Shown here: in pieces, positions 4,673 to 60,431 of the stretch
How the letters are laid out: every line of letters begins with the position of its first letter
Position numbering within the stretch: the stretch's first letter is position 1
Assembly (NCBI RefSeq): GCF_007752535.1
Contig: NZ_CP036426.1
Coordinates: forward strand, 4,650,001 to 4,714,000
Reading direction: 5' to 3'
Length of the DNA: 64,000 bases
Source of the DNA: Tautonia plasticadhaerens
GTDB lineage: Bacteria > Planctomycetota > Planctomycetia > Isosphaerales > Isosphaeraceae
Made by a program: the position numbers and the translations under genes
The notes under the pieces: model-generated
The model's database searches: none
Told to the model about the DNA's origin: nothing
Seen by the model: only the letters and a program-made list of their open reading frames with translations

Positions 4673-6664
4673 TCAGTCGGCGGGGGGGCGGAACAGGCCC
4701 CGGGCGTCCGGATTCGGGCCGCCGCCGACGGATCGGGCCTGGCCGTCGAAGGTGGCCCGCACCCGCCAGAAGGTCCGGTCGGGGTACCACCAGTGATCTC
4801 CCTCGAAGGGCAGGGCGATCGACTCCAGGGGCATCTCCTCGCCGTGGCCGTGGTGGACGAACCGGGTGCCGGGCCCGTCGAGGTGGGCGACTGAGGTGGC
4901 CCGGCTGGCGCCGGTCGGGCCGTCGAAGCGAAGCTCGTCGGAGCGGAGGACCCGGCCGTCGGCGGTGGTGGCCCGGAGGCCGTACCAGCCGGGGGAGGCG
5001 ACGGGCCAGTCGGCCTGGAAATGGTGCGGGGCGGCGGCGGACGGGAACCAGGACCAGCCGGGGCCGTATTCGCCGTCGATCTCGGTGACCGGGACCTTCC
5101 CCTCGAATCGCTCGTCCCCGTCCTCGGGGGAGAAGCGGCGGAGCACCTCGCCGTCCCGGAGCAGCTCGACCGATTCGAGCCGGTCGCCGGGATCGACGGT
5201 GACGATCAGGTGGGCGAAGAACGCCCGGCGCAGCTCGATGAACCGGGTCGCGTTGGCGACCTGGAGGACCATCGCCGAGGCGTCGATCGCCCCCGGCTCG
5301 ACCCGGGGGCCGACGTGGACGGGGCTGGTCATCGCCCAGTGGCCCCGGTCGTCCTCGGCCCGGAGGGCGTACCAGCAGGGGGGCGAGGGGCCGTCGAGCG
5401 CGGTCGCCTCGATCACGACCGTCCCGGATCGGCCGGCCACGTCGAACGACTCGACCTCGACCCCCCGGCGGATGAGTCGGACGGACCGGAGCGGGTTCAG
5501 GCTGCGGACCTCGGCCCGGATCTCCCTGGGGGCCGGGCCGACGGGGAGGCGCTCGCCGGGGCCCCGGCCATCGACCGCCAGGAACGCGAACACCGGCCCC
5601 CCGTTCGACGCGAAGGTGCGGCCGGCCCGGATCGAGGCCGAGATCGCCGGGAGATCCAGGCGGTCGGCCCGGACGTAGACCCGGCGGTCGCCCGGGGAGG
5701 GGGTCCGGGTGCGGCCGAGGGCGGAGTCGGTGGAGCCGCTGGCGGCCACGCGATTGCCCAGGTTCAGGGCGGCGGACCAGAGCAGCTCGGCGGCCTGGCC
5801 GTCGAGGTCGAGGGCGTCGGCGGTGTGCCCCGATGCGGCGTCGGAGAGGAACTCGGCGGCCCCCATCCAGTGGACCTGGTGGGGGGGCGTCATCGGGTGG
5901 GTGTGGATCACCGCCCCGCCCCGGTCGTGCACGGCATCCACGATCGCCTGCGCCGGCAACGGGCGATCGATCAGCCGGGCCAGCTCCCCCGCCGGGAACG
6001 GCGGGGTGAGCCCGGGTGTGTTCAGGTGGCCGACGAACGGCCCGGGGCGCAGCTCGGGGGCGTACCGGAGGAGGAAGCCCCCGGTGGAGAGCCGGTCGAG
6101 GTCGGAGTAATCGACGTTCGACCCGGCCTCGGTGACGAAGCTCAGGCCGTTCGCCCTCGCCTGCAACGCGGTGTAGGCCAGGTCGGTGGCGACGGCCGCC
6201 GAGGAGTCGTGCTGGGCGTGGACGTGGTTGTCCCCGCCGAACCAGCCGAGGTCCTCGGGGGCGAACCAGCGGTGGAGCCGGGCGAACACCTCGGACTGCG
6301 TCCCCGGCTCGGCGTCGACCTCGAACTCCAGCGGGGCGTAGTTCGGGCCGCTCCGGAGGGAGAGCGTCGTCTCCCCGGGGGGGACCTCGACGGTGAATCC
6401 GCCCTCGGCGAAGAACCGGCCGTCGTCGTAGGTCCCCCGGCCGGAGCCGTCGGGATGGCTGCCGTCCTCGGCCGTCACGATCGCCCGGACGGGGAGGGGC
6501 AGGGGGGAGTCGGCGGTCGACCGGTCGTCCTCGACCCGGACGACGATCCTGGGCCTCGCACCCGGGTCGTCGAGCCGGGTGCGGTCGACCCGGTAGGTCG
6601 AGGCCCCCTCGGGTCCGGGAAGGGCGAGGACGGCCGGGGGCAGGATCAGGAGCAGTCGGAGCAT
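4673..6664 (-). CDS. CehA/McbA-family PHP-type metallohydrolase, secreted
   Basis: The 663-residue protein starts with a short signal peptide (MLRLLLILPPAVLALPGPEG). After an N-terminal beta-rich region it carries a PHP-like phosphoesterase domain: GDNHVHAQHD supplies the first metal ligands, FVTEAGSN and VIHTHP follow, and a later SGSTDSALGRTRT stretch completes the site. The family is named from the carbaryl hydrolases CehA and McbA, but most members are of unknown substrate. The long C-terminal third is beta-rich and may be a carbohydrate- or surface-binding appendage. ATG 6664 was selected because it begins the signal peptide; the frame upstream is open only because of GC bias. It is the first gene of a minus-strand series ahead of the sigma-CBM9 gene, 261 bases away. 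Confidence 0.75.
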   Translation of the reverse strand: MLRLLLILPPAVLALPGPEGASTYRVDRTRLDDPGARPRIVVRVEDDRSTADSPLPLPVRAIVTAEDGSHPDGSGRGTYDDGRFFAEGGFTVEVPPGETTLSLRSGPNYAPLEFEVDAEPGTQSEVFARLHRWFAPEDLGWFGGDNHVHAQHDSSAAVATDLAYTALQARANGLSFVTEAGSNVDYSDLDRLSTGGFLLRYAPELRPGPFVGHLNTPGLTPPFPAGELARLIDRPLPAQAIVDAVHDRGGAVIHTHPMTPPHQVHWMGAAEFLSDAASGHTADALDLDGQAAELLWSAALNLGNRVAASGSTDSALGRTRTPSPGDRRVYVRADRLDLPAISASIRAGRTFASNGGPVFAFLAVDGRGPGERLPVGPAPREIRAEVRSLNPLRSVRLIRRGVEVESFDVAGRSGTVVIEATALDGPSPPCWYALRAEDDRGHWAMTSPVHVGPRVEPGAIDASAMVLQVANATRFIELRRAFFAHLIVTVDPGDRLESVELLRDGEVLRRFSPEDGDERFEGKVPVTEIDGEYGPGWSWFPSAAAPHHFQADWPVASPGWYGLRATTADGRVLRSDELRFDGPTGASRATSVAHLDGPGTRFVHHGHGEEMPLESIALPFEGDHWWYPDRTFWRVRATFDGQARSVGGGPNPDARGLFRPPAD

Positions 6665-7218
6665 GGCAAGTTCGGCTCGGTGCGGGCGTCGTCGGGTCGA
6701 ATGCTCCGGGTCCCGGGCGGTGATCGAGGGGACCGGACGCCCCAGGTTACCCCGCCACCGGGCCCCGGTCGATGGCGGGAGGGTCGTCGACATCCCCCCT
6801 TGCCGGTCGCCCCGGTCGCCCGAAACCGCCGCTCGGGAGGAGCCTGGGCACGAAACATGCAATTCTTCAGACAATGACCCGATCCGGACCGAAAGCTGTC
6901 CGGTCCCCGGGCCCGGGGACCAACTGGAGTCCGGGGAGGGCCGGGGTTGGAGCCCCGTCGAATCCCTCCGCGGGATGAACGGAGTCCCGGGGACGATGCC
7001 CCACCCCACCGCCCGGGGCCGCCCCCCAGGTCGATCGACCCGACCCGTCCCGAGGGCCGTCGAGCGTCGCCTCGACGCCCTCGCCGGCGACTCGTCCTGA
7101 GACGCTTGGTCGATCGCCCCGACGACCCACCTCCGGCCGCCGGTCGGCCCGCCGCCTCCGGCGGGCCGACGACTCGGGCCGCCCACGCCCTCGAATCCTC
7201 ACCAGGGAAGACAGACCG
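6665..7218. other. Divergent intergenic region
   Basis: This 554-base region separates the minus-strand PHP metallohydrolase from the plus-strand small gene at 7219. Several frames stay open through GC bias, but none has domain content or a ribosome binding site. A slightly AT-richer patch around 6850-6890 may hold a minus-strand promoter, though I could not settle on hexamers. No repeats were seen. Confidence 0.5.
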
Positions 7219-7446
7219 ATGAATCTCGTTTGCCCGATCGACCCCACCCCACCCCCGATTTCCGCGCCGGACGCCGGGCCGCATCCCCAAGACTCCCGGC
7301 CCCCGGCCGAGGCCGAGGCCGACCGACCCACCGACGACGGCATCGCGTCCGAGATGCAGGTCTGCACCAGCGGCACGCTCGTGGCGATCGTCCGACGCCA
7401 GGATGGCCAGACGGTCGAGGTCATCCGGGTCGTCGGGGACGACTGA
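7219..7446 (+). CDS. Small hypothetical protein
   Basis: The 75-residue product has a Pro-rich, acidic N-terminal half and a compact C-terminal half (TSGTLVAIVRRQDGQTVEVIRVV) that looks like two or three beta strands. Third codon positions are almost all G or C and an AGGGAAG ribosome binding site lies before the ATG, which argues for a real gene. I do not recognise the family. It stands alone between a divergent PHP-type gene and the esterase downstream on the same strand. Confidence 0.45.
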   Translation: MNLVCPIDPTPPPISAPDAGPHPQDSRPPAEAEADRPTDDGIASEMQVCTSGTLVAIVRRQDGQTVEVIRVVGDD

Positions 7447-7631
7447 CCCGTCCGGACCGCCCCCGTCCGGCCCTCGCCCCGCCCGGTCGGGTCTCCCAAT
7501 CGGAGGCGGACCGAGAATCCCGGGTCCGACCGTCGGCGTCGTCTCCCCTGCCCGGTTGCGTCAAGCTGGCGAACCTGGCGAAATGGTGACGGCCTGACCA
7601 CGTGGTCGAATCACCCGGGAGACGAGCGGCG

Positions 7632-9557
7632 ATGTATCCGAGCAACCGGCGGCGGAGTCTGGGGCGAAGGGCGCGATGGGTCGTCGAGGCGTTGGAGCCA
7701 CGGGAGCTGCTCTCCGTCGGGTTCGACTACGCGATGGCCGAGCGGTTCGGGCGCGACCTGAACGACAACGGCCTGATCGACCTGCCCAACACGGCCACCT
7801 ACGCCCAGCCGGCGACCCTCTCGCTGAGCTTCTCGGTGCTCGACGACCCGGATCCGGACCCGGAAACGACCTACTCGTGGTCGATGGCGTCGACGGCGGG
7901 GGGCGATCCGACGGTCGTCACCCGGACCGCGGCGCAGATCGCCTCGGGGGACCTGCCCACGACCAGCCTCCCGGCCGGCGTGTACACGACCACCTTCGAG
8001 CGGAGCGTCGGCGGGGTGGTCACGGACCGGGTGACCCAGCCGGTTGGCGTCCGGGACATCCTGATCGTCAGCATCGGGGACAGCTACAGCTCCGGGGAGG
8101 GGAATCCGGAGCGGGTGCAGGGGCTCTCGCTGCCCGGCGAGTTCCCGTCGGGCACGATCCCCTACCTCCTCGACAGCGACCTCAACCAGACCGAGCCGGC
8201 GATCGCCTTCGTGGCGGCCTCGCCGTTCCTCTCGCAGACGGGCGAGGCGCTCTGGTCCGACGGCGCGGACGGCTTCTACGGGCCGACGCCCTTCGGGCTG
8301 GACATGACGGAGGACAACCGTCAGTCGCACCGTTCGACCGCGGCCGCCACGGCCCAGTACGCCCTGCAACTGGAGCGATCCGACCCGCACTCCTCGGTCA
8401 CGTTCGTCCACGTCTCCCAGAGCGGCGCGACCACCCAGACGACGATCGGGGCGGTGCCGGCCTTCGGGCTCGAGGATCCGAGCTATCGGCTGACGCCGCA
8501 GACGGAGTTGATCCCGGCGATCGTCGGATCCCGGACGGTCGACCAGTTGTTCATCTCCCTGGGGGGCAACGACGTCGGCTTCACGACGCTGGCCGCCGGG
8601 CTGGTGATCGGCGACGTGACGGTGACGGACGTGCTGGGGGAGGTCTCGGCCTTCGCGCCGGGGCAGTTGCCGGCGGTCCTGTCGAGGGCCCAGGCGGTGA
8701 TCTCGCAGTCGACGGCGCTGGGGCTGGTCCGGGCGGGCTTCAACGCCCTGGCGGCCCTGCTGCCGGCCGGTTACGGGAGCGTCCAGCGGGCGATCGTGGG
8801 CTCGGGGGTCGCGGTCGACGCGACGTTCATCACCGAGTACCCGGACCCGACCCGGATCTTCAAGACGTTCGCGAATCCGAACACGGGCCAGCCGTTCACG
8901 ATCCCCTGGTGGGGCCCGGCGATCTTCGACATCCTGCCGCCGGCGGAGGTCTCGGCCACGGAGTCCTTCTTCGTCTCGCAGTCGATCCTGGCCCCCCTGA
9001 ACGCCCTGGCCCGCCAGGGGGCGGCGGCCAACGGCTGGACTTACCTGACGAACGTCGCCGACGCCTTCACCGGCCACGGCTACGACGCCCCCCGGTCCGC
9101 CGACGCGATCGGCAACCTCCGCTTCCTGAGGACGGCCCGGGAGTCTTCGCTCTACCAGGGGCCGGTGGGGCTGACCGGCCCGTTGCACACCAGCGGGACG
9201 CTGCACCCGAACGCGCTGGGGCACCAGGCGATCAAGGGGGCGATCGTCGGCGACCTGACGCCGTCGGTGGCCGCGGTCGGCGGGCCGGGCGGCCGGTTCG
9301 CGTTCGCCGCCCCCCGGGGGCCCCGGCAGGCCCGACACGCCGGGCTGACCTACGCCTGGGACTTCGACCGCCTCCCCGGCCAGGGGGCCTTCCGGGCCGA
9401 CGCCGACGGCCCGAGGGCCGCCATCACCGGGGACGACCCCGACCCCTCGACCCGGGGCCGGGTCGCCACGCTCCGGGTCACCAACCGGCTCGGCCTCTCG
9501 ACCGAGCGGGCCGTCTTCCTGCCCCCGAGCAGGGGGCGCTCCGTGTCGGGCCGCTGA
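7632..9557 (+). CDS. SGNH/GDSL hydrolase with N-terminal LEPRxLLS motif
   Basis: The 641-residue protein opens with a basic segment and the planctomycete motif LEPRELLS (about residues 23-30), found near the N-terminus of many exported planctomycete proteins. The SGNH fold follows: block I is SIGDSYSSGEG with the nucleophile Ser151, block III is SLGGNDVG near residue 312, and block V is GTLHPNALGH with His525. The Asp normally three residues before that His is absent here, as in some esterases of this fold. A large domain between blocks III and V and an Ig/PKD-like C-terminal tail (YAWDFDRLPG) complete it. The likely role is extracytoplasmic ester hydrolysis of lipid or glycan acyl groups. 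ATG 7632 has GGGAGA ten bases upstream, better than the GTG at 7602. Confidence 0.8.
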   Translation: MYPSNRRRSLGRRARWVVEALEPRELLSVGFDYAMAERFGRDLNDNGLIDLPNTATYAQPATLSLSFSVLDDPDPDPETTYSWSMASTAGGDPTVVTRTAAQIASGDLPTTSLPAGVYTTTFERSVGGVVTDRVTQPVGVRDILIVSIGDSYSSGEGNPERVQGLSLPGEFPSGTIPYLLDSDLNQTEPAIAFVAASPFLSQTGEALWSDGADGFYGPTPFGLDMTEDNRQSHRSTAAATAQYALQLERSDPHSSVTFVHVSQSGATTQTTIGAVPAFGLEDPSYRLTPQTELIPAIVGSRTVDQLFISLGGNDVGFTTLAAGLVIGDVTVTDVLGEVSAFAPGQLPAVLSRAQAVISQSTALGLVRAGFNALAALLPAGYGSVQRAIVGSGVAVDATFITEYPDPTRIFKTFANPNTGQPFTIPWWGPAIFDILPPAEVSATESFFVSQSILAPLNALARQGAAANGWTYLTNVADAFTGHGYDAPRSADAIGNLRFLRTARESSLYQGPVGLTGPLHTSGTLHPNALGHQAIKGAIVGDLTPSVAAVGGPGGRFAFAAPRGPRQARHAGLTYAWDFDRLPGQGAFRADADGPRAAITGDDPDPSTRGRVATLRVTNRLGLSTERAVFLPPSRGRSVSGR

Positions 9558-48667: not shown

Positions 48668-50101
48668 TCAGGAGAGGATCGGGGAGACGACCGAGCCGTG
48701 GACGTCGGTCAGCCTCATGTCCCGGCCGCTGAAGCGGTAGGTCAGCCGGGTGTGGTCGACGCCGAGCAGGTGCAGGATGGTGGCGTGCAGGTCGTAGATC
48801 TCGACCTTGTCCCGGATGGCGTGGTAGCCGTAGTCGTCGGTTTCGCCGTGGATGACCCCGCCCCGGATGCCGCCGCCGGCCAGCCACATGGTGAAGCCGA
48901 AGGGGTTGTGGTCGCGGCCGTCGGTCCCCTGGGCCATCGGGGTGCGACCGAACTCCCCGCCCCAGACGACCACGGTGGATTCCAGCAGCCCCCGGCCCTT
49001 GAGGTCCCGGAGCAGGGCGGCGATGGGTTGGTCGACGGCCCGGGCGTTGTCCTCGTGGCCGGCCTTGAGGTTGCTGTGCTGGTCCCAGCGGTCGTGGCCG
49101 ACGCCGGGGCAGGTCAGCTCGACGAACCGGACGCCCCGCTCGACCAAGCGCCGGGCGAGCAGGCACTGGCGGGCGTAGGACCGGGTGTGCGGGTCGGGGG
49201 CGTCGAGCCCGTAGAGCCGGAGCGTCTCGGGGGATTCGCCCGACAGGTCGGTCAGCTCGGGCACGGCCGACTGCATCCGGAAGGCGAGCTCGCCGTTGGC
49301 GATCGCCGACTCGATCGCGTCGTGGTCGCCGACCCGGGCGAGCACGTCCCGGTCCATCGCCCGGACGAGGTCCAGCTTGCGACGCTGGGCCTCCTCGGTC
49401 GCCTCGGTCGGGGCGATGTTGGCCAGCGGCGTCTCGCCCGCCTTGAGCACCGAGCCCTGGAACGAGGCGGGCAGGAAGCCGTTGCCGAAGCAGTCGAGCC
49501 CGCCGGGCGGGACGAGCCCGCCGTTGAGCACGACGAACCCGGGCAACTCCTCGCTCTCCGAACCGAGCCCGTAGGTGACCCAGGCCCCGGCGCTGGGACG
49601 ACCTTGCTGGCCGTGGCAGGTGTGGAGGAAGTAGTTCGCGTTCGTGTGCTCGGAGAAGTTCGAGACCATCGACCGGATGACCGCCAGGTCGTCGACGCAC
49701 GCCCCGACGCGGGGGAACAGGTCGCTGACCGGGATGCCGCTCTCCCCCCGGCGCCGGAACGGCCAGGGGCAGCGCAGGACGTTGCCGACGTTGTTGAACT
49801 GGGTCGGCTCGACCCTCGTCCGGATCGGCCGGCCGTGCTCCCGGTCGAGGCGGGGCTTGGGGTCGAACGTGTCGACCTGGGAGGGTCCGCCGTCCATGTA
49901 GAGGAAGATCACGCTCCGGGCCTTCGCCGCGTGGTGCAGCCCCCCGTGGCCGAGGGTTCCCTCATCTGGAGCGAGTCGCTTCCCGAAGGAACGCTGCGTT
50001 AGCAGGGACGCCATCGCCAGCGCCCCGAAGCCGTTGGCACACCGGGAGAGCATGGCCCGTCGGCTCAGGGGGGGGGCGATGTGGCGTCCGCAGTGGCTCA
50101 T
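48668..50101 (-). CDS. DUF1501 family protein, Tat-type signal
   Basis: The 477-residue protein starts with a Tat-like leader (LSRRAMLSRCANGFGALAMASLL). It has the alkaline-phosphatase-superfamily core of the DUF1501 family: FLYMDGGPSQVDTFDPKP near the N-terminus, VVWGGEFGRTPM and DGRDHNPFGFTMWLAGGG in the middle, and DLHATILHLLG near the end. These proteins are sulfatase-related, exported and always paired with PSD1 proteins in planctomycetes; substrates are unknown, probably sulfated or other polymers. The start is ATG 50101 with GGAG upstream. It lies 49 bases downstream of the PSD1 gene. Confidence 0.92.
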   Translation of the reverse strand: MSHCGRHIAPPLSRRAMLSRCANGFGALAMASLLTQRSFGKRLAPDEGTLGHGGLHHAAKARSVIFLYMDGGPSQVDTFDPKPRLDREHGRPIRTRVEPTQFNNVGNVLRCPWPFRRRGESGIPVSDLFPRVGACVDDLAVIRSMVSNFSEHTNANYFLHTCHGQQGRPSAGAWVTYGLGSESEELPGFVVLNGGLVPPGGLDCFGNGFLPASFQGSVLKAGETPLANIAPTEATEEAQRRKLDLVRAMDRDVLARVGDHDAIESAIANGELAFRMQSAVPELTDLSGESPETLRLYGLDAPDPHTRSYARQCLLARRLVERGVRFVELTCPGVGHDRWDQHSNLKAGHEDNARAVDQPIAALLRDLKGRGLLESTVVVWGGEFGRTPMAQGTDGRDHNPFGFTMWLAGGGIRGGVIHGETDDYGYHAIRDKVEIYDLHATILHLLGVDHTRLTYRFSGRDMRLTDVHGSVVSPILS

Positions 50102-50150
50102 GGCGGGGCTCCGATCCGATCGTCGGGCTCGGCCCGATCGATCGCTCCGA

Positions 50151-53084
50151 TCATTCGACGTAGCGGAATTCCTTGGCGATGACGAGCGCGTGGCAGAGGT
50201 CGGCCCAGGCGTCCCGACCGGCCCGGCCGGCGTCGGACTGCTCCCGGACGAACGCGACGGCCCGATCCCGCTCCGCCTCCGTCGGGGCCCGACCGTAGGC
50301 CGACTCATAGAGCGCGTCGACCACCTCGGCCGGGGGACGATCCGGGGAGCCGGTCGCCCGGCCGGCCCAGCGTCGGGACTGCTCGACGATGAACGGGTCG
50401 TTCATCAGGGCGAGTGCCTGCGAGGGGACGTTCGAGGTGTCCCGGCGGCCCCGGGTGCTGCTCGGGGTGGGGAAGTCGAAGGCCAGCAGCAGCGGCGGGA
50501 GGAAGTTGCGGCGGACGTCGAGATAGAGGCTCCTCCGGCCGTCGCCGTCGATCGGCCCCGACTCCTTAGGGCGCCCCCGGCCCTCCATGAACGGGGAGAG
50601 GTGGGGGGGGACGCTCGGCCCGAACATCGTCGGGTCGAGCCGCCCGGAGAGGGCGAGGAGGGCGTCCCGGATCGCCTCGGCCTCCAGCCTCCGGAGGTTC
50701 ATCCGGTGGAGCAGGGCGTTAGTCGGGTCGGCCCGGTCGGCCTCGGGCCGGGTCTTCGAGGACATCCGGTAAGCGGTCGAGGTCATCATCAGGCGGTGCA
50801 TGTGCTTGGTCGACCAGCCGGAGCGGACGAACTCCGACGCCAGCCAGTCGAGCAGCTCGGGATGGGTCGGCGGAACGCCCATCGCGCCGAAGTCGTCGGG
50901 GGAGGCCACGATCCCCCGGCTGAAGTGGTGGGCCCAGAGGCGGTTGACCAGCACCCGGGCGGTCAGCGGATTCTCCGCCGAGGCGACCCGGCGAGCCAGC
51001 GTCAGCCGGTCGTCGGCCGGGGGCTTCCCTTCGGGATCCAGGACTTCGAGGAATCGCCGGGGCACCACCTCCCCCAGGTTCTTCGAGCTGCCCCGGACGT
51101 GCACCGGAACGTCGATCCCCGTCCCCTCGGCCGCGGCCAGGGCGAGGGTGGGCTCGGGGAGTTCCTCCGCGACCTGGCGGTAGCGGTCGAGGAGCGACGC
51201 GGTGGCCTCGGGGATCGTCCGGCCGTCGATCCGATCGAGGACCGGACCCGATCGGTACTCCGAGGCCGGGCCGGGCGGCTCGCGGTGGTCCGAGGCGAGG
51301 ATCAGGGCGACGGCCAGCGTCCCGTCCCCCGGCCAGAAGGACGAGGTGGCCCCCGTATAGTTCGACGAGGCGCCGTCGGCGAGTTCGAGGTGGGCGAGGT
51401 GTCCGTCCCACATCGAGACGTCCATCGAGACCCATCCCGGCGCGTCTCCCAGGTCGACACCGAGCGTCAGGCCGCCGTAGATGGGGCTCCGGATCTTCTC
51501 GAAGCCGTCGACGACGAGGTTGATCCGCCCCCCCGACCCGGCGGCGAGGACGTGCAGGAACGGCCGGTCGATCGCGAAGGTCTCGGAGCGCAGGACGCCC
51601 TGCAACCGGGGGGCGATCGCCCCGCTGTGGGCCCAGCCGGGTTCGAGCCGGGCGAGGTCGCCGTCGGGGTCGGGCGCGAGGTCCCCGTGGCGGGTGGGAC
51701 GGTCGCCGAAGGCCTGGCCGGCGGGATACCAGGCGTCGAAGGAGTCGGCGGCGAAGTCGGCGAACAGCTCATCTCCTTCCCTGAGCCGGGGAGGCCCGGC
51801 GGCGGGGGCGCGCCCGGGGCCGAACTCGGCGGCGAGCGCGGATCGGATCGACTGGAGTTCGAGCACGCGATCGTCGATCCGATGCGGGGGGTCGATGAAG
51901 GCGTACTGGTGCCGGGCGGTCTGGAAGTGGCCGGCGAGGGCGTAGTAGTCCCGGGTGCCGATGGCGTCGAACTTGTGGTCGTGGCACCGGGCACAGGCGA
52001 CGGTCAGGCCGAGGAACGCCTTGCCGAGCACGTCGATCTGATTGTCGACCCTCGTCCGCATCTCCTCCCGGACGTCGACCGGCGAGTGCGTCCCCTCGGC
52101 CAGGAAGAAGGACATCGTGCCGAGGATCGCCTCGTCGGTCCCAGTCGTCGGGTGCCGCCGGGGGCGGTCGAGCAGGTCACCGGCCAGGTGCTCGACGACG
52201 AACCGGTCGTAGGGCAGGTCGTCATTCAGGGCGCGGATGATGTAATCCCGATAGCGGTGGGCGGTGAGGATGTCGTAGTCGAACTCGTGCCCCGAGGTCT
52301 CGGCGAACCGGACGAGGTCGAGCCAGTGCCTCGCCCAACGCTCGCCGTACCGGGGGGAGGCGAGCAGGCGGGCCACCAGGCGATCGAAGGCGTCGGCTCG
52401 ATCGTCGGCCAGGAAGGCGGCGATCTCCTCCCGGGTCGGCGGCAGGCCGGTCAGATCGAAGGTCGCCCGTCGGATCAGCGTCCGACGATCGGCCTCGGGT
52501 GACGGGTCGAGGCCCTCCGATTCGAGCCGAGCGAGCAGGAACCGATCGACCGGGTTGCGGGGCCAGTCGGCCCTTTCGACCACGGGCACGACCGGGTCGA
52601 CCACCGGTTGCAGGCTCCAGTGCCGGGCCCGGGCCTCCAGGTCGAACGGCTTGGGGCCGCTCGGCGCCTCCCCGTCGGCCGAGGCCTCCGGGGGCCAGGG
52701 GGCGCCCATCGCGACCCACTCCGTCAATCGAGCGATCTCGTCGTCGGGGAGCTTCGAGGACGGCGGCATTTGCACGTACGAATCGTATCGGATCGCCTCG
52801 ATCAGCAGGCTGCCGTCCGGGTCCCCGGGGAGGACCGGGGGGCCGGAATCCCCCCCGACCTCGAAGACGAGGGGGCGGGAGTCGAGCCGCAACCCGGCCT
52901 CCTGCTCCTCCGGCCCGTGGCAGGACAAGCAGCGCTCGACCAGGATCGGCCGGATGCGGGTCTCGAAGAAGGTGATCGCCCGCGGGTCGTCCGCCGGGGG
53001 GGCTTCCTGGGCCCCCGACGGGGAGGCCAGGGCGGCCGCGATTGCCAGCATCGACGCGATTCGAGCGGGATGGAATGGCCCCAT
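50151..53084 (-). CDS. PSD1 and planctomycete cytochrome c (DUF1549/DUF1553) protein
   Basis: The 977-residue exported protein has a signal peptide, a c-type haem motif CLSCH (PSCyt1) near residue 53, the DUF1549 block (WPRNPVDRFLLARLE, then RATFDLTGLPPTREEIAAFL), and a second haem-type CARCH motif. A concanavalin-like insertion (DSFDAWYPAGQAFGDRP) follows. DUF1553 forms the C-terminal third, with MTSTAYRMSS and RRLEAEAIRDALLALSGRLDP. With its DUF1501 partner it probably acts in periplasmic polymer use or redox at the envelope; the exact chemistry is unknown. ATG 53084 is preceded by CGGAG. Confidence 0.92.
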   Translation of the reverse strand: MGPFHPARIASMLAIAAALASPSGAQEAPPADDPRAITFFETRIRPILVERCLSCHGPEEQEAGLRLDSRPLVFEVGGDSGPPVLPGDPDGSLLIEAIRYDSYVQMPPSSKLPDDEIARLTEWVAMGAPWPPEASADGEAPSGPKPFDLEARARHWSLQPVVDPVVPVVERADWPRNPVDRFLLARLESEGLDPSPEADRRTLIRRATFDLTGLPPTREEIAAFLADDRADAFDRLVARLLASPRYGERWARHWLDLVRFAETSGHEFDYDILTAHRYRDYIIRALNDDLPYDRFVVEHLAGDLLDRPRRHPTTGTDEAILGTMSFFLAEGTHSPVDVREEMRTRVDNQIDVLGKAFLGLTVACARCHDHKFDAIGTRDYYALAGHFQTARHQYAFIDPPHRIDDRVLELQSIRSALAAEFGPGRAPAAGPPRLREGDELFADFAADSFDAWYPAGQAFGDRPTRHGDLAPDPDGDLARLEPGWAHSGAIAPRLQGVLRSETFAIDRPFLHVLAAGSGGRINLVVDGFEKIRSPIYGGLTLGVDLGDAPGWVSMDVSMWDGHLAHLELADGASSNYTGATSSFWPGDGTLAVALILASDHREPPGPASEYRSGPVLDRIDGRTIPEATASLLDRYRQVAEELPEPTLALAAAEGTGIDVPVHVRGSSKNLGEVVPRRFLEVLDPEGKPPADDRLTLARRVASAENPLTARVLVNRLWAHHFSRGIVASPDDFGAMGVPPTHPELLDWLASEFVRSGWSTKHMHRLMMTSTAYRMSSKTRPEADRADPTNALLHRMNLRRLEAEAIRDALLALSGRLDPTMFGPSVPPHLSPFMEGRGRPKESGPIDGDGRRSLYLDVRRNFLPPLLLAFDFPTPSSTRGRRDTSNVPSQALALMNDPFIVEQSRRWAGRATGSPDRPPAEVVDALYESAYGRAPTEAERDRAVAFVREQSDAGRAGRDAWADLCHALVIAKEFRYVE

Positions 53085-53263
53085 CAGTGTCTCCGACTCG
53101 GGCGGCCGATCCGGGTGCAAACCCAGTTCGACCGAAGCATCGGGCCGCATTGCCCGATCGACTCCCGGGAACCTCCACCTTGCGCGATGACGCCCCGGAT
53201 GTCGAGCGGTTCCACGCCCCTGGATGCCGGGGAAATGCCCGGAAGCCCGAGGGTCTCCCGCAC

Positions 53264-53911
53264 CTATCGCACCAGGCCGATCAATCCGGCGGCCACGACA
53301 AGGAGGGAGAGGACGACCCCCCAGAAGACGATCGAGGCCCGCCAGTCGGGAGGCGACCCGACGCCCTCGGCGGCGGGTTCGTCCCAATCATCGTCGTCTT
53401 CGTCCTCGTCGGCGGGGACGGACCAGCTCTGCGAGAGGAGGATCCGGGCGTCCTGGACGAACGCCCGGGGGACCTGGAGCCGGATGCCCCCGGTGGCGAC
53501 GTGGTAGGCGGTGTTCGTGCCCATCCGGTAGCCGTCGAGCAGGGTGGGGATCGCCTCGGCGTCGAGCCGGAGCCGGGCGGCATCGGCCTGGAAAGGCAGG
53601 GTGAAGGTCTCGACGGTGGTCCAGTCGATCCGCTCGCCGTCGGCCACCGGGTGGGCCGGCTCGGGCCGATCCGACGCCAGCGGCAACTCGTGTTTCGGGC
53701 AAGGATCCCCGGCCGGGAGGGGCCAGAAGGACTCGCAGACGGTGCAATAGCCCTGCGATTCGAGGCGGTCGCCGCACTCGGGGCAGAGGTCGGAGTGCGA
53801 CCGCCGGGGCCGGTCGCAGCCGGGGCAGAATCGGGGAGGTTCCGGGCGGGCCCGACCCCGGGCGGACACGCCGCCGGGGTCGCCGGTCATCCCGAGCCAG
53901 TCATCCCGCAT
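53264..53911 (-). CDS. Zinc-ribbon protein with DUF2007-like domain and C-terminal membrane anchor
   Basis: The 215-residue protein has three CxxC-type pairs near the N-terminus (FCPGCDRP, LCPECGD, YCTVCES) forming zinc ribbons. A middle domain follows (AEAIPTLLDGYRMGTNTAYH, then DARILLSQSWSV) resembling the DUF2007 putative signal-transducing fold, then an acidic linker, then one C-terminal transmembrane helix (IVFWGVVLSLLVVAAGLIGL). It should be cytoplasmic and tail-anchored. Its role is unknown. GGAGGAGGAGCG lies before ATG 53911. Its upstream neighbour, PlsY-propeller, is 78 bases away on the same strand. Confidence 0.72.
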   Translation of the reverse strand: MRDDWLGMTGDPGGVSARGRARPEPPRFCPGCDRPRRSHSDLCPECGDRLESQGYCTVCESFWPLPAGDPCPKHELPLASDRPEPAHPVADGERIDWTTVETFTLPFQADAARLRLDAEAIPTLLDGYRMGTNTAYHVATGGIRLQVPRAFVQDARILLSQSWSVPADEDEDDDDWDEPAAEGVGSPPDWRASIVFWGVVLSLLVVAAGLIGLVR

Positions 53912-53989: not shown

Positions 53990-55774
53990 TCATCGCCGGG
54001 CCGGCAGGTCGCCCGCCTGCGATCGGGCCGAGGCCACCGCCGGCGGCCCGTCCCCGGTCGGGGGTCCGTCGACCGGTCGCAGCGCGACGATCCGGACGCC
54101 CCCGGAGCGGTCGGCAATCGCGAGGACCGATCGCTCCGGGCAGTAGGTGACGGCCATCGGGATGATCGTGCCGAAGTTCAGCGGCCCCCGGAGCGGCAGG
54201 CGTCCCAGTGCCCGGCGCTCCCGGCCGTGGACGACTTCCAGGGCCGAGCCCTCGGGGAGCGTCGTGACGAGCAGCGGGCCCTCGATCCCGGGAGGGTCGA
54301 CCACCAGGGCCGAGTCCCGCTCCGAGTCGACGGGCATCAAGATCTCGCCGCCGTCCTCGACCCCCGAGAGGTACGGCACCTCGCGGGCCGCCAGCGGCAC
54401 CCGGCCGGTGGCGAGGGGGGCGGCGGGGTCGGTGAGGTCGACGCCCGCGACCTGGCCCGATCCGGCCAGGACGATCGCTGCATACCGGGCCGAGTCGGAC
54501 AGGACGATCCGCTCGGGGTCGTCCTTGGGGCCGGTCAGCTCCAGGCGGGAGACGATCCGGTGATGCTCGGTCCGATCGCCGACCGACACGACGACCAGGG
54601 CCGGATCCGGCTTGCCCTCCTCACCCTCGGCGTGGCCGGAGGTGATGACGAACGCCCATCGGCCGTCCGGGGTGAAGGCGAGGTCGTCCGGATCCCAGCC
54701 GACCCGGAACTTCGAGCCGACGGGGTTGCCCTCGAAGTCGAACGCCTCCCAGTAGCCCTCCTCGATGTGCCGGGCGTCGCCGTGGGGGCGCTGGAGGACG
54801 AACAGCCGGTCGCCGGAGGCCCGGACCGCCACGGGTCGGCCCCTCAGGTCGAGGTCCCGGAGCCGATCGGCCCGCCCCTCGTCGTCGACCCGGAAGAGGA
54901 CGACGCGGTTGTACCTCGGGCAGCCGACGGCGAGCAGCCGGCCGTCGTCGGCGAAGGTCAGGGAGCTGGCCCGCTGGTGGCCGGTCCGGAAGCGGTCGAC
55001 CTCGACCAGCTCGGCGGCGCCGATCGTCAGCGTCGGCGCAGGTCGGTCTCTCACCACGAACCCGGCCGCGACGATCGCCGAGGCGGCGACGAGGGCCAGC
55101 ACGACCAGCGAGACGACCGGGACCCGCCCCTCCCGGGCCTTCTTGCCGAAGGAGACCTTGGACTCGGTCCCCGCCCGGATCCGGCCGATGTTGGAGCGAT
55201 GTCGGTAGATGAGCATGACGTAGAGCACCGCGATCAGGAGTGCCAGGGTCAGGTCCGACGCCGTCCACGGCTCCCGGGCCCTCGCGAAGTGGACGATCAC
55301 GAAGGCCGTCCCGCCGAGGATCGACGACATCGACACGTACCGGGTGAGGAGGATCACCACCAGGAACGCGACGGCCGCCGCCGCCGCCGCGATCGGGTCC
55401 AGCGCCAGCACGGCCCCCAGGCTGGTCGCCACCCCCTTCCCCCCCTTGAACCGGAGGTAGACCGGGAAGTTGTGCCCCAGGATCGCCGCCAGGGCGACGG
55501 GCACGGCGAGGATCGGCACCGACCGGCCGGTCATCGCCTCGACCGCGATCGGGAAGCCGAGCGTGGGCCCGAGCCCCTTGAGCAGGTCGAGCGTCATGAC
55601 CAGGACGAAATACTTGAACCCGAGGACCCGGCCGACGTTGGTCGCCCCGACGTTGCCCGAGCCGACGGTGCGGATATCCACGCCCCTCGCCCACTTCGCG
55701 ATCAGGTAGCCGAAGGGGAGGGCGCCGATCAGGTAGGCGAGCAGGACGGCGATCGAGGAGAGGGCGAGGGTCAT
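53990..55774 (-). CDS. plsY: PlsY glycerol-3-phosphate acyltransferase fused to a beta-propeller-like domain
   Basis: Residues 1-215 are PlsY: SGNVGATN at 38-46, GHNFPVYLRFKGGKGVATSLG at 100-120 and HRSNIGRIRAGTE at 192-204, with the expected helices. PlsY moves the acyl group of acyl phosphate to glycerol 3-phosphate, the first step of phospholipid synthesis. An extra helix (218-241) and about 350 residues of WD40/YVTN-like propeller repeats follow (SLTFADDGRLLAVGCPRYNR, FTPDGRWAFVITSG, YCPERSVLAIADRSG). The fused part is not in usual PlsY; it may sense or bind something at the membrane. ATG 55774 was chosen as the normal PlsY start; the nucleotidyltransferase gene ends seven bases upstream. 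Confidence 0.85.
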   Translation of the reverse strand: MTLALSSIAVLLAYLIGALPFGYLIAKWARGVDIRTVGSGNVGATNVGRVLGFKYFVLVMTLDLLKGLGPTLGFPIAVEAMTGRSVPILAVPVALAAILGHNFPVYLRFKGGKGVATSLGAVLALDPIAAAAAAVAFLVVILLTRYVSMSSILGGTAFVIVHFARAREPWTASDLTLALLIAVLYVMLIYRHRSNIGRIRAGTESKVSFGKKAREGRVPVVSLVVLALVAASAIVAAGFVVRDRPAPTLTIGAAELVEVDRFRTGHQRASSLTFADDGRLLAVGCPRYNRVVLFRVDDEGRADRLRDLDLRGRPVAVRASGDRLFVLQRPHGDARHIEEGYWEAFDFEGNPVGSKFRVGWDPDDLAFTPDGRWAFVITSGHAEGEEGKPDPALVVVSVGDRTEHHRIVSRLELTGPKDDPERIVLSDSARYAAIVLAGSGQVAGVDLTDPAAPLATGRVPLAAREVPYLSGVEDGGEILMPVDSERDSALVVDPPGIEGPLLVTTLPEGSALEVVHGRERRALGRLPLRGPLNFGTIIPMAVTYCPERSVLAIADRSGGVRIVALRPVDGPPTGDGPPAVASARSQAGDLPARR

Positions 55775-55781
55775 CGGCGGT

Positions 55782-56528
55782 TCACCCGATCTTGAGCTGG
55801 GGGCGGTCCGGGGCGACAAGGAACTCGCGCCGGCGGGCCTCGAAGATCTCGTTGGCGGCGGCGTAGTCGTCGTGCCGGCCGATGTCGAGCCAGGTGCAGT
55901 CCTGCCGGAAGCAGTGGACGGGGTGGCCGTCGGCCCGCATCGCCTCCAGCAGTTCGGGCATGGTCAGCTCCCGGCCGGGGGCGAGGTAGTCCCAGGCCAC
56001 GGGGTCGAGCATATACAGGCCCATGCTCACCTGGAACGAGAACTCGGGCTTCTCCCGGTAACCGGCCAGGACGTGCGGGTCGTCGGCGAACTCCAGGACG
56101 CCGAAGTCGATCCGCACCGTGCGGGGGAACGAGGCGATCGTCGCCCTCGCCCCCTGGGACCGGTGGAAGGCAGCCATCCGGGCGAAGTCGAGCGTGGTGA
56201 GGATGTCGCCGTTGAGCACGAGGACCGGCTCCCTCGGCCGCTCGACCAGGACGAGCCCGCCCGCCGTGCCCAGGGGGGAGACCTCGCGCCGGTAGTCGAC
56301 CCGGGTGCCGAAGCGCCGGCCGTTGCCGCAGAAAGCCTCGATCAGCTCGGTGAGGTAGCCGGTGATGATCGTCACGTCCCGGAAGTCGAACCGGGCCAGT
56401 TGCCGGAGCACGACCTCCAGGATCGGCATCGGCTCGGCCTCCCCCAGCGGCATCAGCGGCTTGGGGAAGACGTGGGTGAACGGCCGGAGCCTCGTCCCCT
56501 TGCCGCCGGCCAGTACGATCGCCTGCAT
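55782..56528 (-). CDS. Sugar-1-phosphate nucleotidyltransferase
   Basis: The 248-residue protein begins with the nucleotide-binding loop VLAGGKGTRLRPFT (residues 5-18) and carries FPKPLMPLG, the LNGDIL metal site and the C-terminal CTWLDIGRHDDY block. It activates a sugar phosphate as an NDP sugar, in this context probably for LPS core or envelope glycan. The family of mannose, glucose and heptose transferases cannot be told apart by eye. PlsY-propeller follows seven bases downstream and a GT4 gene lies 42 bases upstream. Confidence 0.87.
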   Translation of the reverse strand: MQAIVLAGGKGTRLRPFTHVFPKPLMPLGEAEPMPILEVVLRQLARFDFRDVTIITGYLTELIEAFCGNGRRFGTRVDYRREVSPLGTAGGLVLVERPREPVLVLNGDILTTLDFARMAAFHRSQGARATIASFPRTVRIDFGVLEFADDPHVLAGYREKPEFSFQVSMGLYMLDPVAWDYLAPGRELTMPELLEAMRADGHPVHCFRQDCTWLDIGRHDDYAAANEIFEARRREFLVAPDRPQLKIG

Positions 56529-56570: not shown

Positions 56571-57788
56571 TCAGCCGGCCTTGCGGAGCGACCCCTTCGC
56601 CGGCCCCGATCCCGACCGCCGCTCCTCGGCGACCTCCTCGAACAGGGCGACCAGCCGGTCCAGGTGCGCGTCGAACGACTGGGCCTTCCCCAGTCGCTCG
56701 GCGGCTCCGGCCATCGCCCGGCGGCGGTCGTCGTCGCAGAGTTGATCGAGGGCATCCGCCAGCGCGTCGAGGTCGTCGGCCTCGGGCACGACATACCCTT
56801 CTCGCCCCGGGGTGACGACCTCCCCGGCGCCGTTGGTGGCGGTCGTCACCACGGGGAGCCCCCGTGAGAGCGCCTCGAAGACGACGAGCGAGCAGGGGTC
56901 GTAGTAGCTCGGCAGCACGAAGCAGTCGCTCCCGGCGAAGGCGGGGCGGACGTCGTCCATGAAGCCGACCAGGTGGACGTGCTCCTCCAGGCCCAGCGAC
57001 CGGACCTTCCGCCGGTACGGCTCGATCTTCCCGCCGCCGCAGACGACGAGATGGACCGGCCGAGCGGCCGGGGCGTGGTCGAGCCTGAGCCGGAGGGCCT
57101 CCAGGAGCGGGTCGAGTCCCTTGAGCCTGAAGTTGTGGGCCAGGAACAGGGCGATCAGGTCGTCGGGACCCAGGCCGAGCCGGGATCGGAAGGCGAGGCG
57201 GGCCCCTACCGGGTCCTCGACGCGGAGTCGGTTCGCGTCGATCGCGTTCGGGATCACCCGGATCCGATCTCCGGGCACCCGATAATAGGTCTGCAAATGC
57301 TCTTGGACGAATTCGCTGACCGCGACCACCCGGGCGGCCCGGCTCGGGTCGTACTGCCGGCGCTCGATCGACCGATAGAGCCAGTCCTTCGGGTTGGCCC
57401 GCTTGCTGGCCGTGTAGAGCGACCGCCTCCAGCCGACCGGGAAGCGCCGGGCGTTGTGCTCCAGGCTGGCGGGGTGGACGCCCCCCTGGGGGATGATCAC
57501 GTCATGGTGCCAGGTGTTGATGAACCCGATTGAGCAATCGAAGGTCGCCTCCCGCAGGGCCGCTTCCGAATTCCGGGCGAAGCTCAGGAGGCGGGCCCAC
57601 CGCGTCGGGCCCGTCGCGGCGACGGGGACGACCCGGACCCCCCCGGCAAGCGCCCCCTCGGCGCAGGAGGAGGAGTAGAGGTCGACGCGGTGCCCCCGAT
57701 CGACGAGCCCCCGGCAGAGGTCGGCGACATAAGTCTCGGCGCCTCCCCGGGACGGATCGACGCGCTGGAAATTGATCGCGAGATGCAT
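56571..57788 (-). CDS. GT4-family glycosyltransferase, LPS core type (WaaG-like)
   Basis: The 405-residue protein has the GT-B fold: an N-terminal domain with FQRVDPSRGGAETYVADL, a middle RVIPNAID hinge and a C-terminal domain with the nucleotide-sugar site DPCSLVVFEALSRGLPVV (EX7E). The order RFPVGWRRSLYTASKRANP fits LPS core GT4 enzymes. It lies in an operon with LPS genes, next to a WaaP-like kinase 28 bases upstream. Confidence 0.82.
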   Translation of the reverse strand: MHLAINFQRVDPSRGGAETYVADLCRGLVDRGHRVDLYSSSCAEGALAGGVRVVPVAATGPTRWARLLSFARNSEAALREATFDCSIGFINTWHHDVIIPQGGVHPASLEHNARRFPVGWRRSLYTASKRANPKDWLYRSIERRQYDPSRAARVVAVSEFVQEHLQTYYRVPGDRIRVIPNAIDANRLRVEDPVGARLAFRSRLGLGPDDLIALFLAHNFRLKGLDPLLEALRLRLDHAPAARPVHLVVCGGGKIEPYRRKVRSLGLEEHVHLVGFMDDVRPAFAGSDCFVLPSYYDPCSLVVFEALSRGLPVVTTATNGAGEVVTPGREGYVVPEADDLDALADALDQLCDDDRRRAMAGAAERLGKAQSFDAHLDRLVALFEEVAEERRSGSGPAKGSLRKAG

Positions 57789-57816: not shown

Positions 57817-58674
57817 TCAGCCGGCTCGGGCCTTCTTGCGGTTGTGTGACAGGTAGCGGGCCGCCCTCGCCCGGATCATCCGGAGTTCCAGGCCGGGGCC
57901 CGAGAGCCCCATGAGGCGGCGGTATCGGGCCCAGAAGCGGAGCCGGTCCCGGTCGTCGACCCCTTCGACTTCGACCGTGGAGAACAGCAATTGCGCCAGG
58001 TCCTTCCAGCGCCACCAGGGGGCCGAGGCCCGGTGGGTGGCCAGGCGGTGGAGGTCGATCAGGTAGAGCGGCGAATCGTCCCGGCCGAGGTCGACGTAGT
58101 AGTGGCAGAGGTACAGGTCCTTGTGGAAGGTGCTCGCGCCGTGCAGCCGGGCGGTCAGCCCGGCCATCGCCGAGACGAGGCGTCGCTTCCGGCGGTCGAA
58201 CTCGCCCGGCGGGAGGCGGCGGGCCATCTCGGGGATCGCCTCGTGGAGCGGGAGGAAGCCGGTCAGCTCCTCGACCATCAGGTAGCTCTGGAAGCGTCCC
58301 CAGGGGCCGATGGATTCCCCCGCGGCGACTGGCTCGGGCACGAGCAGGCCGAGCTGCCGACCCCGGTGCAGGTGCCGCCACTCGGCCCCGGCCGGGGAGT
58401 GTCGGCCGTCGGGGTGGAGCAGGGCCGCGACCCGGGTCCCCCAGGGCAAGCGGTAATGCCGCTTGAGGTAGACCGTCAGCGGCCCGTCCGGGCCGTCGAA
58501 CCGGACCCGGCAGGTGGATCGTCCCTGCTTGGCGTGCAGCCGGTCGTCGCTCCGCAACTGCATGACGGTCCCTTCGAGGTCGCCCGGGAGCCGATCCCGG
58601 TGCGCCTCCGACCGCCAGGTCCACCGCTCCCCTCGGGTGAGGCGCCGGAGGAACGTGCCGATCCGGCTGATCAT
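57817..58674 (-). CDS. WaaP/RfaP-like LPS core heptose or Kdo kinase
   Basis: The 285-residue protein resembles the atypical protein-kinase fold of WaaP: an ATP-binding N-terminus (VYLKRHYRLPWGTR), VEELTGFLPL in the hinge, the catalytic-loop-like FHKDLYLCHYYVD and the metal-loop-like LYLIDLHRL. It would phosphorylate a sugar of the LPS core. ATG 58674 overlaps the stop of the GT39-like gene upstream (ATGA), giving translational coupling. Confidence 0.75.
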   Translation of the reverse strand: MISRIGTFLRRLTRGERWTWRSEAHRDRLPGDLEGTVMQLRSDDRLHAKQGRSTCRVRFDGPDGPLTVYLKRHYRLPWGTRVAALLHPDGRHSPAGAEWRHLHRGRQLGLLVPEPVAAGESIGPWGRFQSYLMVEELTGFLPLHEAIPEMARRLPPGEFDRRKRRLVSAMAGLTARLHGASTFHKDLYLCHYYVDLGRDDSPLYLIDLHRLATHRASAPWWRWKDLAQLLFSTVEVEGVDDRDRLRFWARYRRLMGLSGPGLELRMIRARAARYLSHNRKKARAG

Positions 58675-60338
58675 TGGACGATCCCCTCCCAAGACTGCGG
58701 CCTCCGGAAGCGATAGACGCGGACGCCGATCTCGTCGTCCCCCTCGCGACCCGGGAAGGCGGCGACGGGCTCGGCGGCGTAGTCGAGCAGGGCGCCGAGC
58801 GTCTCGGCCCGGGCGCTGTCGGCGGTCAGCTCGTCGTCGCCGACGACGACGTAGGCGAGCCTCGCGTCGGTGAGCGCCTGGCGGATGTGCCAGGGGTCAT
58901 ACGAGCGAAGTCCCGAGACGAACGCCGCCCAGCCCCTCGTGTCCAGCACCGCCTCACCCGCCCCGGCCCGGTCGGCCAGCCAGAGCCCGGCGGCCTGGTG
59001 GCCCCAGCGGCTCGGGTGCCCCGGCTTGAGCTGGACCGCCACGCCCCCGATCGCGATCGCCGAGAGCGTCGTGATCGCCAGCCGACGACGCCGTCCCGCC
59101 CCCATCGCCAGCCGATCGGAGAGGAACCGGGCCAGGCCGATCGCCCCCGCCGCCGCCCAGGGGGTCGCGAGCAAGGCGAGGGTCGCGCAGTGTCGGTCCG
59201 ACAGGTATCCGGCCCTCATGGCGTGTCGGATGAGCACGATCCCGTAGGCGATCGCGAGGCAGGCCGCCAGTTGTCGGGCCTCCCGGGAACGTCGAGGGCC
59301 CCGGTGATGCCAGGCCCCCCAGCAGGCCAGCGGGACCAGCACCCAGGCCGTCGCCTCGCCGATCCCCCGGGCCACCCGGATCGAGGCCGGCGCCGGTCCG
59401 AGCCGGCCCGGCGCGTCCGATTCCTCCTTGGGGGAGAAGTCCCACCTCGGGTCGTCCAGCCCCCGGGGGACCCAGTGGGGGACGCTCCTCGCCACCCCGG
59501 TCCCGTCGCCGAGGCCGGTGGCGTACCGCATCGAGAGCTTCTCGGAGATCGTCCCCTTGATCGCCGCGTACGAGCCGACGCAGGCGACCAACGGGGCCGA
59601 GATTGCCGCTGCGAGGAGGAGGCGGCGGGGGAGATCGGGAGGGATTTCAGGCTGAGGCGCTGAGGCGCGGAACGGAAGACGAGAGAAGATCCGATGTTCA
59701 CGCTCTCCTCGCCCTTCTCTTCTCTGCGGCTTTGCGCCTCTGCGAGAGAGCCCTCCTCCGACGACGCCCAACGCGATCACCCCCGGCACCAGCGCCACCT
59801 CCGGCCTGGCCAGGAAGCCGATCCCCGCGATCGCCCCCGAGCCGACGGCCGCGAGCACGCCCCCGGTCGTCGCGGCCCGAGTCCCCAGGGCCAGCGCCCC
59901 GGCGACGCAGAGCAGGGCGGTCGCGTCGCTGAGCGTGTCGTGGCCGATCCTCCCCGAGATCGGCAGCAGGGCGAACAGGAGGCTCGCCAGCAAGGCCGGG
60001 CGACGGCCGACGACCGTCCGGGCGAACCCGAAGAACGGGAGGACCGCCGCGACCATCGCCAGCGCCGAGACCCCTTGAGCGGCGACCCGCCAGGAGCCCG
60101 GCCCTTCGCCAATCATCGGGGCGATGAACGGCTGTGCGACCGCGATCAGGGCCGGATAGAGCGGGTGCTGGTCGGCGCGGCGGACGACGTCGGCCCAGGG
60201 CTGTTCGCCGAACTCTCGGGCGATCCGGATGAACTTTAGGCCGTCCTGGGAGGGGAGCGGGGTCCGGATCATCCCCACGACGTGGAGGACCGCCGAGAGG
60301 ACGAGGATCCCAATCAGTGCCCGATCTCGGCGGATCAT
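58671..60338 (-). CDS. GT39-like integral membrane glycosyltransferase with an in-frame repeat insert
   Basis: The 555-residue protein has ten or more transmembrane helices, an acidic first loop (PSQDGLKFIRIAREFG) and a soluble C-terminal part (DTRGWAAFVSGLRSYDPWH), the PMT/ArnT-like plan. Residues about 198-230 (RGAKPQRREGRGEREHRIFS and following) come from a repeat in the DNA at about 59650-59750 that resembles a known dispersed planctomycete repeat and shows up as a charged loop between helices. It probably glycosylates lipid-linked core sugars. GGAGGGCGGGG precedes ATG 60338. The WaaP-like gene overlaps its 3' end. Confidence 0.7.
   Translation of the reverse strand: MIRRDRALIGILVLSAVLHVVGMIRTPLPSQDGLKFIRIAREFGEQPWADVVRRADQHPLYPALIAVAQPFIAPMIGEGPGSWRVAAQGVSALAMVAAVLPFFGFARTVVGRRPALLASLLFALLPISGRIGHDTLSDATALLCVAGALALGTRAATTGGVLAAVGSGAIAGIGFLARPEVALVPGVIALGVVGGGLSRRGAKPQRREGRGEREHRIFSRLPFRASAPQPEIPPDLPRRLLLAAAISAPLVACVGSYAAIKGTISEKLSMRYATGLGDGTGVARSVPHWVPRGLDDPRWDFSPKEESDAPGRLGPAPASIRVARGIGEATAWVLVPLACWGAWHHRGPRRSREARQLAACLAIAYGIVLIRHAMRAGYLSDRHCATLALLATPWAAAGAIGLARFLSDRLAMGAGRRRRLAITTLSAIAIGGVAVQLKPGHPSRWGHQAAGLWLADRAGAGEAVLDTRGWAAFVSGLRSYDPWHIRQALTDARLAYVVVGDDELTADSARAETLGALLDYAAEPVAAFPGREGDDEIGVRVYRFRRPQSWEGIVQ
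59650..59750. repeat. Dispersed-type repeat inside the GT39-like gene
   Basis: This roughly 100-base tract is rich in short direct and inverted units (GAGGCGCTGAGGCGCGG, CTTCTCTTCTCTGCGG, GCGCCTCTGCGAGAG) and resembles the cytosine/guanine dispersed repeats often seen between planctomycete genes. Here it is read in frame. Its exact borders are approximate. Confidence 0.6.
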
Positions 60339-60431
60339 CGCCCCGCCCTCCGTGACCCCTTGCGATGCGCGGTCCGCTCCCTGGGCCGCGGGCCGGATTG
60401 TGGGGGGGGACCGGATTCGGGTCAAGGCCAG

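Follow-up and report, generated by a model that had tools for sequence, protein, structure and literature searches.

The gene at positions 53990 to 55774 of the window (the whole 64,000-nucleotide stretch of the Tautonia plasticadhaerens genome analysed here) joins a PlsY acyltransferase, a linker with an additional transmembrane helix and a beta-propeller domain in one reading frame. Read on the minus strand, the frame begins at 55774, ends at 53990 and has 594 codons without an internal stop; the closest named relative is Tautonia sociabilis (Isosphaeraceae, Planctomycetota; 74% identity). The features of the gene and its neighbours are the following:

53990..55774, minus strand: whole PlsY-propeller gene, 594 amino acids plus stop, ATG at 55774 (open-frame translation; an alignment of 29 proteins of the family backs this start)
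55142..55774, minus strand: PlsY acyltransferase domain, residues 1-211 (PF02660 and TIGR00023 matches)
55025..55141, minus strand: linker with positive charge and predicted extra transmembrane helix, residues 212-250 (hydrophobicity, low-confidence model)
55052-55108, minus strand: predicted extra transmembrane helix, residues ~223-241 (Kyte-Doolittle)
54059..55024, minus strand: predicted beta-propeller domain, residues 251-572 (profile, structure model, fold matches)
53993..54058, minus strand: C-terminal tail, residues 573-594, without conservation (family alignment)
53264..53911, minus strand: short protein weakly matched by double-zinc-ribbon models, following plsY directly
55782..56528, minus strand: sugar-1-phosphate nucleotidyltransferase-like gene, ending 7 nt before the plsY start
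56571..57788, minus strand: GT4 glycosyltransferase gene of the conserved cluster
57817..58692, minus strand: WaaP/Kdo-kinase-like gene of the conserved cluster
58671..60425, minus strand: membrane glycosyltransferase-like gene (PMT_2), start codon uncertain

Two genes downstream of the cluster, in its orientation (48668-53387), are taken to be DUF1501-like and DUF1553-like, one each; DUF1501/DUF1553 pairs are typical of planctomycetes.

The N-terminal part was matched over residues 5-208 by PF02660 (E 1.7e-50; 171.8 bits, cut-off 24.1) and TIGR00023 (171.6 bits, cut-off 137.2), and a profile built from the PlsY parts of 20 family proteins (out of 29) matched the Aquifex PlsY structure 5XJ5 with an E of 1.5e-49. 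The G3P-pocket residues given for Aquifex PlsY in the available sections of PMC5700162 (Ser35, Arg45, Lys104, Ser142, His177, Asn180) correspond to S39, R49, K113, S151, H192 and N195 of the window protein in the alignment to 5XJ5 (counted by hand on the profile-5XJ5 alignment, the 5XJ5 chain index being the published number plus one). All six are invariant in the 29 aligned fused proteins, the window's included, all of them taken from stop-free frames. Judged from these residues, the PlsY part keeps an intact substrate pocket and is a predicted enzyme. In a genome-wide profile search of the 9.4-Mb T. plasticadhaerens genome the fused gene was the sole PF02660 match, and PlsX, which makes the acyl-phosphate donor, also gave one match.

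The C-terminal part reached the cut-off of no Pfam family in the scan of the window protein, and WD40 (PF00400) scored 18.3 bits on the domain alone, below the gathering cut-off of 27. Modelled by itself from two sequences, the domain is nearly all beta (mean pLDDT 56, pTM 0.59); the best Foldseek matches of this low-confidence model were WD40 propellers (E 9.3e-11, TM-scores only 0.3-0.5), and VIA aligned 262-270 residues to the top two of them (Z 16.4, rmsd 4.7-5.3). This weak model suggests a WD40-like, propeller-type fold over most of the domain and, with low confidence, seven blades, the matched WD40 structures presumably being seven-bladed. A profile of 29 propellers (A3; 25 fused and 4 separate, four close copies excluded) also matched the surface-layer protein 1l0q (YVTN-type) with an E of 1.1e-10, summed over short repeats on one stretch (profile positions ~92-130). 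Twelve positions are invariant in the 29 propellers (267, 268, 286, 287, 312, 336, 362, 380, 384, 420, 530 and 558, window numbering), including four polar residues located between modelled strands (Q267, R268, R287 and H336), and conserved loop motifs are found (TGHQRA, CPRYNR, RPxGDxRHxEPG and SGxAEG). Such loops of a propeller share one face, and we infer that this set is a candidate binding face.

The two domains are separated by a stretch of 35-64 residues, variable among the 29 proteins, which in all of them holds a hydrophobic 19-mer (mean Kyte-Doolittle 2.34, lowest 1.68). In the window protein the most hydrophobic 19-mer is 223-241 (mean 2.82), and the full-length model, of low confidence (mean pLDDT 46), has a helix at 220-242. 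Lysine and arginine are more abundant in the 20 residues before the helix (mean 5.4) than in the 20 after it (2.7), an excess seen in 28 of the 29 proteins. The position of the nearby G3P residues suggests that the PlsY C-terminus is cytoplasmic, so that an eighth helix would place the propeller in the periplasm; the charge bias likewise indicates that the propeller is probably outside the cytoplasm, and in 28/29 proteins it disfavours a cytoplasmic location. The earlier reading of the locus, a complete PlsY followed by an extra helix and about 350 residues of propeller in a single frame, is confirmed by the PF02660 and TIGR00023 scores, the hydrophobic 19-mer and the fold match, the propeller part fitting residues 251-594, although conservation is lacking in the final 22.

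It had further been proposed that the fused domain senses lipid or cell-wall state. In its strict form, in which a ligand on the propeller would alter PlsY activity allosterically, this idea agrees with the predicted periplasmic placement, with the invariant polar loop residues and with the direct tie to the first acylation enzyme; however, the signal would have to pass through a single helix within the 35-64 residues of variable linker, the available text of PMC5700162 describes a relatively inflexible active site for Aquifex PlsY, and the genomes with two separate genes also speak against it. We regard strict allosteric sensing as unlikely.

The join of PlsY and propeller was present in 37 of the 45 Isosphaeraceae genomes, as a single match spanning PlsY through propeller in 35 of them (several matches of the survey were flagged with one stop); in the other two there is a break in the PlsY frame around residues 78-89 (G061) or the contig starts inside PlsY (G006). 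At the G061 locus (L105, ~6425-8322) the only plsY found is split over two frames, by sequencing error or a real frameshift. Two separate genes were found in 5/45 genomes (G013, G031, G025, G008 and G305), adjacent in four and ~14 kb apart in one. Two genomes gave only a fragment near a contig end (G029, G034) and one gave no match (G009; 92% complete, ~600 contigs); these three were not counted either way. The dN/dS values (NG86) for six close pairs were 0.10-0.43 for PlsY and 0.10-0.36 for the propeller, consistent with purifying selection on both halves.

A lost stop codon or assembly error confined to T. plasticadhaerens is ruled out by the join in 37/45 genomes of the family; a local accident is also countered by the selection on both halves and by the joined assemblies, some of which consist of one to five contigs, and no support for it was found. 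Chance joining is excluded by the same recurrence together with the dN/dS values of 0.10-0.43 on both halves (six pairs). The initial annotation had named separate genes in relatives, with a lost stop here, as the sign of such an accident, and comparison of gene order gave the opposite picture, since most members of the family have the fused form. A viral-contig scan returned nothing useful.

The five two-gene genomes bear on what the fusion is for. By the chosen starts, G013 and G031 have an 8-nt overlap between plsY and the propeller gene; G305 has an in-frame ATG with a 4-nt overlap with the plsY stop and a second ATG 30 nt further; in G025 the chosen propeller ATG lies 14 nt past the plsY stop; and in G008 the propeller gene is ~14 kb from plsY on the opposite strand. 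The separate propellers start with a hydrophobic anchor of their own, as judged by eye (G013, G031, G025, G008 and the truncated G305 copy). Covalent linkage is thus not required, one pair being unlinked, and this also speaks against obligate control of PlsY through the fusion. Since PlsY and the propeller can function as two polypeptides, a complex, rather than the covalent bond, may be what matters.

The order of events was analysed on a tree of PlsY, the propeller and two cluster proteins, rooted with seven PlsY outgroup rows filling ~20% of the columns. Three changes between the fused and two-gene states were needed on this four-protein tree. G013 and G031 look like later fissions, because they are placed beside fused relatives on starred branches, while an early branching of the G008/G025/G305 lineage was not rejected (AU p 0.33), so that separate neighbouring genes may be the starting state. 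The PlsY tree alone did not resolve the origin of the two-gene forms.

These data raise the possibility of a passenger: the propeller would have its own periplasmic job (e.g. glycolipid assembly), PlsY would be a mere membrane anchor, unaffected in its activity, and the fusion would have arisen when two neighbouring genes ran together. Fusion and fission by small indels should be easy, since the genes overlap by 8 nt (G013, G031) or lie within a few nt of each other (G305, G025); the separately anchored propellers, the unlinked halves of G008 and the repeated changes of state all fit a passenger. Nevertheless, the join has been kept in most of the family over deep divergence though fission is clearly possible. 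A plain passenger is possible, and nearly as likely as the docking/sensing reading given below.

Strong matches to the propeller profile were confined to Isosphaeraceae in the genomes sampled: 35/36 family genomes of the class sample matched strongly, and 13/261 non-family genomes gave weak partial matches (best E 8.5e-6); in the phylum sample (n=342, overlapping with the class sample), two family members matched strongly, 22 other genomes gave weak partial matches (best E 1.1e-5) and 318 gave none. Both searches scored the 5 to 7 best candidates per genome, so that a distant propeller relative could be missed. The propeller query gave no match against plasmid records. With no convincing close relative outside the Isosphaeraceae among these genomes, the propeller appears to be a family of its own.

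PlsY itself was matched in 261 of 294 phylum genomes. The initial annotation was correct in taking the stand-alone enzyme as the usual form of PlsY, and among the matches listed the open frames are mostly ~205-300 amino acids; at least 14 non-family rows among them have frames of 306-992 amino acids, so that the phylum may contain further fusions of PlsY. One class family (f3) has PlsY with a C-terminal DUF4149 in 5/5 proteins (L043-L047; genomes G053, G038, G047, G043 and G051), DUF4149 scoring 22.6-30.7 bits, in four of the five above the cut-off of 24.6; the frame in another f3 genome, G056, is about as long. Neither PlsX nor PlsB was found in nine of nine genomes without PlsY (G040, G045, G049, G060, G064, G074, G077, G087 and G090), which belong to families f5, f7, f9, f10 and f11, are 96-99% complete and were chosen for the missing PlsY match; three control relatives did give PlsX. 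The PlsY, PlsX and PlsB models thus appear to recognise no first-acylation enzyme in these nine genomes.

The genes around plsY are conserved with it. The nucleotidyltransferase lies directly upstream, and the GT4 gene before that, in 17/17 other Isosphaeraceae loci (L098-L110 and L035-L038), and all 16 loci long enough to include them also carried the WaaP/Kdo-kinase-like and PMT_2-like genes, complete or truncated at the end of the locus. In G008 it is plsY, and not the relocated propeller gene, that the cluster accompanies. Directly after plsY, 11 of 16 family loci have the zinc-ribbon gene, which lies ~3.5 kb further in L101 and was not seen in L099, L103, L037 and L038. The cluster genes gave no NCBIfam match at cut-off; by sequence the cluster is of envelope-glycan type and resembles genes for cell-surface sugar-lipid synthesis. 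The position of the gene within this conserved cluster would suit the sensing of lipid or cell-wall state, and gene proximity does not prove that PlsY and the cluster proteins act jointly.

In other families of the class, GT4 was present in seven of eight loci around the kinase-like match (adjacent in six, and with a nucleotidyltransferase between in L142). Around plsY itself, GT4 was beside the gene in two of eight non-family loci, G043 (f3) and G041 (f6), two genomes chosen since a kinase match was already near plsY; neither the cluster GT4 nor the nucleotidyltransferase was found near plsY in the other six (G053, G038, G047, G051, G042 and G044). At these two loci, L138 (G043) and L135 (G041), GT4 forms a pair with the WaaP/Kdo-kinase-like gene. 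As this pair thus adjoins plsY outside the Isosphaeraceae, in two families, its association with plsY may predate the fusion.

The reading we favour, at a probability of roughly 0.4, is that the propeller, tethered in the periplasm, acts in docking or sensing and so connects PlsY with the assembly of envelope glycolipid. From the PlsY C-terminus, the positively charged linker would lead into the eighth transmembrane helix, which would hold the propeller in the periplasm; there the propeller would serve as a binding module whose conserved loops dock an envelope component or a partner protein, keeping PlsY at the docking site and possibly reporting its occupancy. Phospholipid-precursor supply would in this way be coupled to the assembly of a surface glycolipid that the products of the adjacent genes (nucleotidyltransferase, GT4, WaaP/Kdo-kinase-like and PMT_2-like) putatively make. 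The architecture, its conservation, the purifying selection and the cluster come from the data, and we infer the topology, the binding face and the coupling. The two-gene genomes count in favour of docking in that the anchored propeller adjoins plsY in 4/5 of them, overlapping or within 14 nt. The kinase-like and GT4 genes beside plsY in G043 and G041 also favour this reading; the six non-family plsY loci where neither the cluster GT4 nor the nucleotidyltransferase was found count against it, as does the weakness of the structure models. A narrower and still more doubtful version for the Isosphaeraceae has the propeller bind, in the periplasm, an intermediate of an envelope glycolipid and set PlsY activity through the eighth helix, keeping phospholipid and glycolipid in step; if true, control of the committed phospholipid step would come directly from outside the cytoplasm.

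The balance between phospholipid and surface glycolipid is a central question in bacteria with two membranes, and its control points in planctomycetes have been little studied. With PlsY fused throughout a family to a domain predicted to bind in the periplasm, and encoded within a cluster of envelope-glycan type, a physical connection between the two lipids can be proposed and tested, and the natural two-gene relatives are ready controls for it.

No description of a PlsY-propeller fusion was found in the literature searched, most subscription papers being outside its coverage; the words 'fusion' and 'fused' are absent from the available text of PMC6431249, and a PlsY passage from that of PMC7203096. 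In the sections of PMC5700162 at hand, Li and colleagues report two PlsY-DegV fusions, in Bellilinea and Thermanaerothrix, and state that Pfam at that time held no PlsX/PlsY or PlsY/PlsC fusions; DegV proteins bind fatty acids, and the proposal there is that they pass acyl-phosphate on to PlsY. C-terminal PlsY fusions are therefore already known, and the propeller partner appears to be new relative to the literature searched.

Compared with these systems, the window protein shares the whole PlsY domain and the same G3P-pocket residues with Aquifex PlsY (5XJ5), but the latter, as far as the available text describes it, consists of seven transmembrane helices without any additional domain, whereas the window protein adds a linker, a predicted eighth helix and the propeller. 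With the YVTN surface-layer protein (1l0q) and WD40 propellers it may have in common blade-like stretches, to judge from the short-repeat profile match, and its weak model gives propeller fold matches; it differs from WD40 in scoring below the Pfam cut-off and in having no close relative among the genomes searched. The PlsY-DUF4149 proteins of f3 are another lineage-specific C-terminal PlsY fusion, although DUF4149 has hydrophobic stretches and no propeller. PlsY-DegV, from what the accessible text gives, is alike in carrying a domain fused to the PlsY C-terminus, but there the partner is a fatty-acid-binding protein, and here it is a propeller predicted to lie on the opposite side of the membrane.
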